A stretch of 64,000 nucleotides of DNA from Haliea sp. E1-2-M8 (lineage in GTDB: Bacteria > Pseudomonadota > Gammaproteobacteria > Pseudomonadales > Halieaceae): assembly GCF_030649675.1 (NCBI RefSeq), contig NZ_JAUTDR010000001.1, positions 310,001-374,000 on the forward strand. Direction: 5' to 3'. Shown piece by piece: positions 31,451-32,078 of the stretch. The notes under the pieces are model-generated. The model was not told the origin of the DNA. It worked only from the letters and a program-made list of their open reading frames with translations, and searched no databases. How positions within the stretch are numbered: the stretch's first letter is position 1; every line of letters starts with the position of its first letter. Position numbers and translations under genes: made by a program.

Positions 31451-31527
31451 AGGACCATAGCTCAGTTGGTTAGAGCGCTACCTTGACATGGTAGAGGTCG
31501 CCAGTTCGAATCTGGCTGGTCCTACCA
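31451..31527 (+). tRNA. tRNA-Val (anticodon GAC), CCA encoded
   Basis: 77 nt fold: acceptor stem AGGACCA pairs with TGGTCCT (31517-31523), discriminator A at 31524, then encoded CCA. The anticodon stem CTACC/GGTAG encloses the loop TTGACAT with anticodon GAC (valine codons GUC and GUU). The T arm is GCCAG-TTCGAAT-CTGGC. The 3' end of this gene, from the T stem on, is the start of a 171-bp tandem repeat. Confidence 0.96.
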
Positions 31528-32078
31528 AACACAAGACCCCGCCCATGGCGGGGTTTTTTGTTTGGATAGAGGGTGGATTTGAACTGGCGCCAGTTCGACA
31601 AACTGCGGGAGCAGTTTGCAACGAGCGGCGCCAGCCGCGAAGCCCGCAGGGTCGGAGCAGGCGCCAGCCTGATCCGATTCATCTGGCTGGTCCTACCAAA
31701 CACAAGACCCCGCCCATGGCGGGGTTTTTTGTTTGGATAGAGGGTGGATTTGAACTGGCGCCAGTTCGACAAACTGCGGGAGCAGTTTGCAACGAGCGGC
31801 GCCAGCCGCGAAGCCCGCAGGGTCGGAGCAGGCGCCAGCCTGATCCGATTCATCTGGCTGGTCCTACCAAACACAAGACCCCGCCCATGGCGGGGTTTTT
31901 TGTTTGGATAGAGGGTGGATTTGAACTGGCGCCAGTTCGACAAACTGCGGGAGCAGTTTGCAACGAGCGGCGCCAGCCGCGAAGCCCGCAGGGTCGGAGC
32001 AGGCGCCAGCCTGATCCGATTCATCTGGCTGGTCCTACCAAACACAAGACCCCGCCCATGGCGGGGTTTTTTGTTTGG
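31510..32078 (+). repeat. 171-bp tandem array (3.3 copies) starting with the tRNA-Val 3' end
   Basis: Units begin at 31510, 31681, 31852 and 32023 (period exactly 171; the fourth is a 56-bp partial ending at 32078). Each starts with the last part of the tRNA (TCTGGCTGGTCCTACCA), followed by a Rho-independent terminator (CCCCGCC-CAT-GGCGGGG plus T6) at unit offset about 27. The three full units continue with the 14-bp palindrome AACTGGCGCCAGTT, a hairpin CAAACTGC-GGGA-GCAGTTTG, and two GGCGCCAGCC copies. Full units look identical base for base. Because 171 is 3 x 57, long open frames cross the array on both strands; they are probably by-products. The layout parallels the E. coli tyrT/rtT array. 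Confidence 0.95.
31537..31559 (+). terminator. Rho-independent terminator of tRNA-Val
   Basis: Perfect 7-bp GC stem CCCCGCC/GGCGGGG with a CAT loop and T6, starting 10 nt after the CCA end. Exact copies recur every 171 bp at 31708, 31879 and 32050, so read-through transcripts would meet four terminators in a row. Confidence 0.9.

Follow-up and report, generated by a model that had tools for sequence, protein, structure and literature searches.

The tRNA-Val array described here is a new variant of the rtT kind of repeat, and it exposes a much wider family. It lies in the window (the whole 64,000-nucleotide stretch of Haliea sp. E1-2-M8 DNA that was analysed), behind the only tRNA that ARAGORN finds there. 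The array is a tRNA-Val member of a large family of repeats linked to tRNA genes; the rtT repeats of E. coli probably belong to it as well. The latter have counted as a peculiarity of a single tRNA operon since they became known in about 1981-1991; rtT now appears as a single branch within a family that occurs behind 12 tRNA isotypes and combines a constant module with tRNA-specific flanks. We favour the reading that the unit is a modular DNA repeat with RNA as a by-product. At a probability of about 0.5, the repeat would spread by way of T-loop copies, be amplified between tRNA 3' ends and be transcribed mainly where no terminator precedes it. Comparison thus makes the origin and function of rtT-like repeats testable and supplies a covariance model for annotation, and it raises a concrete question, namely what moves the module between the T-loops of tRNAs.

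The array is real. An exact 171-bp tandem array of 3.3 copies at tRNA-Val had been claimed in a preliminary description, and ARAGORN, TRF (matches 100%) and a repeat search bear this out, with copies beginning at 31510, 31681 and 31852, at spacings of 171 and 171 (Table 1). Each unit starts with the final 18 nt of the tRNA (ATCTGGCTGGTCCTACCA, from A59 through CCA), close to the "last 17 or so" originally noted. The unit then runs through a terminator, an inverted copy of the T-arm, GCCAGTTCGA and a four-hairpin module to ATCTGGCTGGTCCTACCA again; the module, about 85-100 bp long, lies inside the T-loop of an incomplete tRNA copy (TTCGA, module, ATC). The preliminary description did not include the module, the inverted T-arm copy with its palindrome or the partial copy downstream. 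It did assign a complete terminator to every unit, in agreement with the four terminator-like sites found on the + strand at 31533, 31704, 31875 and 32046. The interval 31300-32300 holds eight terminator-like sites in all, where shuffles give an expectation of 0.9, and a single promoter-like site, upstream of the tRNA; none was found within the array in the scan of this interval. Folding one unit, a check proposed at the outset, gives z = -6.7. The copy number is taken from a draft assembly of 94 contigs and is not certain; the two elements of the tRNA-Lys type in this genome come within about 470 and 1,480 bp of contig ends, which leaves copy numbers in the genome as a whole uncertain. Such arrays may break assemblies and differ in copy number among strains.

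Table 1. Features of the tRNA-Val locus (positions in the window).
Feature	Position	Strand	Evidence
Sigma-70-like tRNA promoter, TTGAGG-17-TATAAT	31405..31433	+	10/12 consensus bases
tRNA-Val(GAC), CCA encoded, T-arm GCCAG-TTCGAAT-CTGGC	31451..31527	+	ARAGORN; RF00005 72.6 bits
Tandem array, 171-bp unit x3.3, 100% identical	31510..32078	+	TRF, repeat search
Terminator, stem into CCA (CCAAACA..TGTTTGG)	31525..31565; again at +171, +342, +513	+	folds, terminator scan
Inverted tRNA-Val T-arm copy, complementary to 31499-31512 (93%)	31576..31589; repeats at 31747, 31918	+	
Perfect 16-bp palindrome GAACTGGCGCCAGTTC, hairpin H0	31581..31596	+	inverted-repeat search
Hairpin module, unit 1	31594..31686	+	R2 85.8 bits, E 5e-21; in R2 training set
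Hairpins of unit 1	H1 31599-31618, H2 31625-31638, H3 31643-31651, H4 31652-31677	+	covariation
Hairpin module, unit 2	31765..31857	+	R2
Hairpin module, unit 3	31936..32028	+	R2
tRNA-Val 3' end copy (A59 to A76) closing unit 1	31681..31698; again 31852-31869, 32023-32040	+	
Putative decayed remnant past the array, GTAGATGAGCGGC followed by AATCTGGGC, which we infer to be an inverted segment fused to a T-arm-like tail, module missing	32079..32110	+	read from the sequence
Partial unit AATCAGAACTGGCGCCAGTTCGACAAA (palindrome and first module bases), about 1.5 kb downstream	33632..33658	+	no R2 score up to E = 1

The surroundings of the array have features of their own. The gene upstream of the tRNA (29612-31360) carries Sel1 repeats and a caspase-like Peptidase_C14 domain. 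Directly before the tRNA promoter lies GTAGGAGCCCGCTCCTGCGGGCGATGC (31366-31392), which we take to resemble a Pseudomonas-type REP hairpin. An ORF without a Pfam match (32136-33560) separates the array from the partial unit, after which an alkyl-sulfatase-type gene begins at 33719; the ORF is unlike the LysR gene that follows the array in G006, a genome of the same genus. Elsewhere in the window (18669-18790), about 20 copies of the hexamer TTGGGT, with 85% matches, have a telomere-like look.

The four-hairpin structure of the module is real. When seven modules were aligned with MAFFT under a structure drawn by hand, 93.1% of the cells paired and 15 of the 27 pairs showed double changes; the covariation score was 0.481, against 0.160 ± 0.032 for shuffled alignments, and slid structures paired at 33-37%. 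A model-fitted alignment of 70 distinct sequences has double changes in all 27 pairs. The loops are conserved too: H3 loops are GNA closed by C-G in 128 of 159 cases (summed by hand from the loop list with the nested form included; the strict pattern accounts for 69), while the H1 tetraloops are GNYA in 19 and GNRA in 9 of 155. C(GNA)G and C(GNNA)G are unusually stable DNA mini-hairpins, which gives a hint here. Conserved loops together with tRNA-specific segments suggest selection, not pure parasitism. The 171-bp period of the window is open on both strands, and a coding array was considered; unit spacings elsewhere are divisible by 3 in 15 of 42 cases, the chance level, and the array is probably not coding.

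Repeats of this type are widely distributed. Model R1 finds a match in 31 of the 58 genomes around that of the window (G000, included in the count) and in three of the eight genomes of the genus, again counting its own. Model R2, for which only genomes of the window's order were used, has matches in 70 of the 369 class genomes (in 59 of 272 sampled genera) and in 25 of the 299 phylum genomes, own genome included in both; at least one family outside the class is represented, and the three loci read there all lie behind tRNA-Ser. The match of the three window units to R2 (85.8 bits, E 5e-21 each) is by construction, all three being members of the training set. The search of the clade for repeats behind tRNA-Val, recommended in the preliminary description, proved fruitful: G006 has an array of 96% identity whose second unit is broken off, G022, from another genus, has an array of 184-185 bp units, and module copies occur behind tRNA-Val in G008, G028, G018 and G019. 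No match to the query was found among phages, and the best 10 of 59 plasmid matches cover its tRNA part alone.

The tie to tRNA genes is close. A tRNA lies within 300 bp of 128 of the 180 distinct elements, on the same strand in 128 of 128; the nearest tRNA is upstream of 114 of these and downstream of 14. Some of the elements without a nearby tRNA (52 in all lack one within 300 bp) have an intact tRNA 3' end. Ninety-five elements follow a tRNA with a recognised T-arm at a distance below 100 bp; by isotype they divide into Ser (43), Arg (21), Val (11), Gln (8), Lys (5), Asp (2), Tyr (2), Pro (1), Glu (1) and Thr (1). Met and Asn are further isotypes, Met by position alone, with a mismatched tail. 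Other loci showed R2-like modules away from tRNAs: a 217-bp tandem array with no tRNA nearby (L159, genome G076) and, in G399 (L168/L169), several dispersed modules without a tRNA, with CAAGAT/ATCTTG-like flanks.

The flanks of the module follow the tRNA, and the module does not. Over 48 order-level elements, the tail matched its own tRNA at 311 identities, against 229 ± 6.5 (maximum 247) in 500 permutations, and the inverted segment at 304, against 250 ± 5.6 (maximum 265); with 95 elements, the inverted segment reached 628, against 519 ± 7, above all 300 permutations. The match to the reverse complement of the acceptor strand was borderline (430 against 410 ± 6, permutation maximum 429), and that of a direct copy of the T-arm 5' strand before TTCGAC was not significant (110 against 98 ± 5.4, maximum 119). 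The two central bases of the inverted copy could be read in 48 of the 95 elements: 27 have GA, 10 have TC, as expected, and 11 have other bases. Module identity was compared over 45 elements, with labels set by hand. It averages 0.655 for the same tRNA in different genomes and 0.651 when both differ; for different tRNAs of the same genome it is 0.693 (permutation 0.655 ± 0.014, maximum of 500 at 0.705), and modules may be slightly more alike inside one genome, a difference that is suggestive only.

Modules behind different tRNAs of different genera can be 89-93% identical, as in the pairs G028 Val/G000 Ser, G000 Lys/G023 Val and G000 Lys/G018 Asp. In the aligned pairs the similarity extends from about TTCGAC to the end of hairpin 4 or to ATC, with sharp ends. 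Two of the top three pairs share their tRNA (G006/G000 Val, from one genus, at 94%, and G014/G018 Arg-CCG at 92%), the pattern expected of vertical descent, and this counts against movement of the module. No target duplication was seen. Nonetheless, since the flanks match their own tRNA and near-identical modules stand behind different tRNAs, the module probably passes from one tRNA locus to another, by exchange or by movement, and the flanks stay with the locus.

How the array relates to E. coli rtT can be judged from both models. The preliminary description had likened the array to tyrT/rtT but attributed the likeness to convergent formation on a different tRNA. The comparison was right, indeed understated; the convergence gives way to homology as the likelier origin. 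R2 scores the three K-12 rtT repeats at 20.0, 19.0 and 15.5 bits and the tyrT-tyrV spacer at 13.1, and its four best matches in the K-12 tyrTV region (1801 nt, searched with filters off) have E values from 6e-5 to 4.5e-3; the Rfam RtT model also matches the sites in the rtT repeats and the spacer. The E. coli unit is made up of GGGGAAGGATGAGAAGCTTCG (the inverted tRNA-Tyr 3' end), GGTTCGAC, hairpins and AATCCTTCCCCCACCACCA. It has the same register, with GGTTCGAC at the start, AATCCTT of tRNA-Tyr at the end and the inverted T-arm segment upstream. In two tRNA-Tyr arrays elsewhere in the class (L142 and L163), Rfam RtT and R2 match in the same places; in L160 and L153 Rfam RtT stays below its cut-off. 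The same Rfam model (RF00391) gives no match up to E = 1 in the window interval 31000-32500 and, at its gathering threshold of 45 bits, leaves all 20 order-level loci without a match, L039 and L007 included. From the R2 scores, the shared register and the two tRNA-Tyr arrays matched by both models, rtT and the window array are probably homologous rather than convergent, although the E. coli scores are modest.

Some part of the tyrTV region is matched in 5375 of 5426 E. coli genomes. The strains read carry 0 (three strains), 1, 6 and 8 annotated units, and in L201, which has none, the tRNA end abuts the flank that follows the unit of L204. Gain and loss of units therefore take place at the tRNA 3' end, and some strains of E. 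coli lack them altogether; recombination at this end, one of the origins proposed in the preliminary description, is supported to this extent. In the literature, RtT is recorded in Pasteurellaceae, with citation of Bosl and Kersten 1991 (PMC4986893), BIME-type elements are called similar to rtT (PMC2965389), a tandem GA motif is noted in RtT (PMC7657543) and an antisense RNA at tRNA-Tyr is mentioned (PMC11623569). A literature search, most subscription papers being outside its scope, gave among the matches listed no such repeats behind tRNAs besides RtT.

According to the reading that we favour, the module would spread at the DNA level, either inserting into the T-loop of a spare tRNA 3' end or being exchanged there. 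Whole units would then be gained or lost by recombination between the direct copies of that end, and the tRNA gene would be spared, since each unit restores its 3' end. The repeat would persist as a tolerated and largely silent sequence; in the absence of a preceding terminator (the E. coli case) it would be co-transcribed and yield a processed tRNA trailer RNA. Covariation, distribution, co-orientation, flanks that match their own tRNA, modules shared across tRNAs, the loss of units in E. coli and, in the window, the terminator ahead of each unit all count for the DNA-repeat reading, as do the match in only three of eight genomes of the genus and the non-coding unit spacings. Counted against it are the lack of a linked recombinase among the downstream ORFs scanned, the lack of target duplication, the same-tRNA pairs among the most similar modules, the G.T bias described below and the hint of selection in the conserved loops and tRNA-specific segments.

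The strongest competitor, though an unlikely one, is a functional RNA. The units would be co-transcribed with the tRNA, 3' processing would free a folded RNA of about 130-170 nt, and pairing with the T-arm would modulate maturation or the stringent response, a role as proposed for rtT. Read-through would be needed wherever a terminator precedes the units. Every unit in the window has a strong terminator ahead of it, with no promoter-like site in the array, and 30 of 48 order-level units pass a strict test for perfect stems, having a terminator-like hairpin with a T-run in the gap between tRNA and module; more of them look terminator-like in folds. The terminators in the window make strong transcription of its units less likely, in contrast to E. 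coli, where RtT is annotated as a processed sRNA. In a low-temperature study of Thioalkalivibrio, RtT is reported as upregulated (PMC8092127). The strict co-orientation with the tRNA, the covarying helices and the complementarity of the inverted segment to the 5' strand of its own T-arm are all as a functional RNA would have them; the three E. coli strains read without units, and the five of eight genomes of the genus that gave no match, are not.

Mismatches within the helices bear on the same question. Isolated ones (A3 and A5 together) comprise 27 G.T against 7 A.C on the tRNA-sense strand, compared with 77 against 0 in tRNA stems, a point for the functional RNA; counted over all cells, the two are about equal in A3 (26 against 23) and stand at 23 against 11 in A5. 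The G.T excess speaks for folding of the tRNA-sense strand, as RNA or as single-stranded DNA, though the signal is less clear than that of tRNA. G-U content, tried as a way to tell RNA from DNA, was set aside as not diagnostic: the share is 1.5% in the elements, between acceptor stems (0.6%) and T-stems (5.8%) of tRNAs, with terminators at 3.6%, and does not decide against a functional RNA.

A rather improbable alternative is that the module is a miniature mobile element, targeted to A58/A59 of the T-loop in tRNA orientation, guided by the inverted segment and served by an enzyme in trans. The guide would be this tRNA-specific segment, complementary to the T-arm and often changed at positions 57/58; guides that pair with their target are found in IS605 and IS110 systems. 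On this view, the rtT of E. coli would be a copy that became domesticated or stranded. The search for a linked enzyme covered, for most loci, about 1.5 kb per side. Pfam families in 129 of the 131 listed downstream ORFs had at most four members each; families beyond the best 25, any integrase included, account for at most one of the 129 ORFs, and PHROGs gave three transposase families with one member each among the downstream ORFs. Y1/RAYT transposases occur in 17 of 31 genomes with an element and in 13 of 27 without (p = 0.79). The window's own genome has two IS110-type matches, on contigs C28 and C53, which are without strong elements; there is none on C1 (the contig of the window), C4, C48 or C78. 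In G018 a transposase-like ORF (L076:1805-3043), called an IS by reading its sequence in a two-copy case, sits inside hairpin 4 of a module that follows a tRNA-Arg 3' half, and a group II intron D1-D4-7 match lies about 0.6 kb behind a tRNA-Tyr unit (L142:2210-2357).

Recombination-site remnants are a still less probable source. The units would be att sites or their scars (attL/attR with a duplicated tRNA 3' end, hairpins in att), occasionally carrying genes. A T-loop insertion point and a restored tRNA 3' end are typical of tRNA integration. In a second layout the module stands straight in the T-loop of a tRNA 3' half (for instance L082, L099, L153, L172), and split tRNA halves whose T-loop holds the module, a point for this reading, were recognised by eye at L075, L082, L090, L099, L153, L154 and L172. 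An integrase is usually specific for one site, however, and one conserved module is found across the 12 isotypes; nor are integrases enriched among the ORFs scanned near the elements, and the phage integrases listed on element contigs of the window's own genome (C4 and C78) are more than 100 kb from them. Genes between units are clear at two loci, L152 (an ORF for a HigB toxin with an HTH ORF, and a MazE-like ORF) and L153 (an AurF-like gene), but the E. coli arrays read carry no cargo between units. A cassette array was dropped as the main reading and kept as a rival. At L152 (1300-6900) four units follow tRNA-Ser-GGA, the first and the last module being equal in score and sequence. Least probable of all is a mutational by-product of template switching and gene conversion at tRNA hairpins, with neither mobile unit nor function, which would account for the exact tandem identity, the quasi-palindromes and the inverted T-arm copies but not for a four-hairpin order and junctions kept in the class and beyond, mostly C(GNA)G loops in H3 and modules common to different genera.

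Several known systems share traits with the repeat that we favour as a modular DNA element. AaHKsRNA22 (RF02902, an Aggregatibacter sRNA) matches elements of L152, L161 and L153 below threshold (30.1-38.6 bits, cut-off 39.8) and is not among the matches listed for the window; judging by these scores, its family may be another branch of the tRNA-linked repeats. Like REP/BIME elements with RAYT (Y1), the repeat is short, palindromic, non-coding and apparently mobile; unlike them it is tied to tRNA 3' ends and shows no association with Y1 transposases, the counts given above placing it outside REP/RAYT. Integron attC cassettes are folded recombination sites, and the IS110 bridge RNA has two specific segments that match to the left and right of the insertion point. 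The repeat is folded like attC and, like the bridge RNA, has two tRNA-specific segments flanking the insertion point. It differs from both in that no such enzyme is linked to it among the ORFs scanned, and the contig of the window lacks the IS110-type match that would go with a bridge RNA. The closest relative is E. coli rtT (RF00391, rttR b4425 in K-12; spacing 178 bp, annotated RNA 171 nt), which likewise has tandem units with the tRNA 3' end in each, an inverted T-arm segment, a start at GGTTCGAC, an end in AATCC and a module matched by R2. The window array departs from it in following tRNA-Val instead of tRNA-Tyr, in the terminator ahead of each unit, in its longer helices and in escaping the Rfam RtT model, whose gathering score it does not reach. 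By its tandem units with the tRNA 3' end it resembles RtT, and by its co-orientation behind the tRNA, with the exact last 18 nt as the tail from its own tRNA, it belongs to the R2 family.
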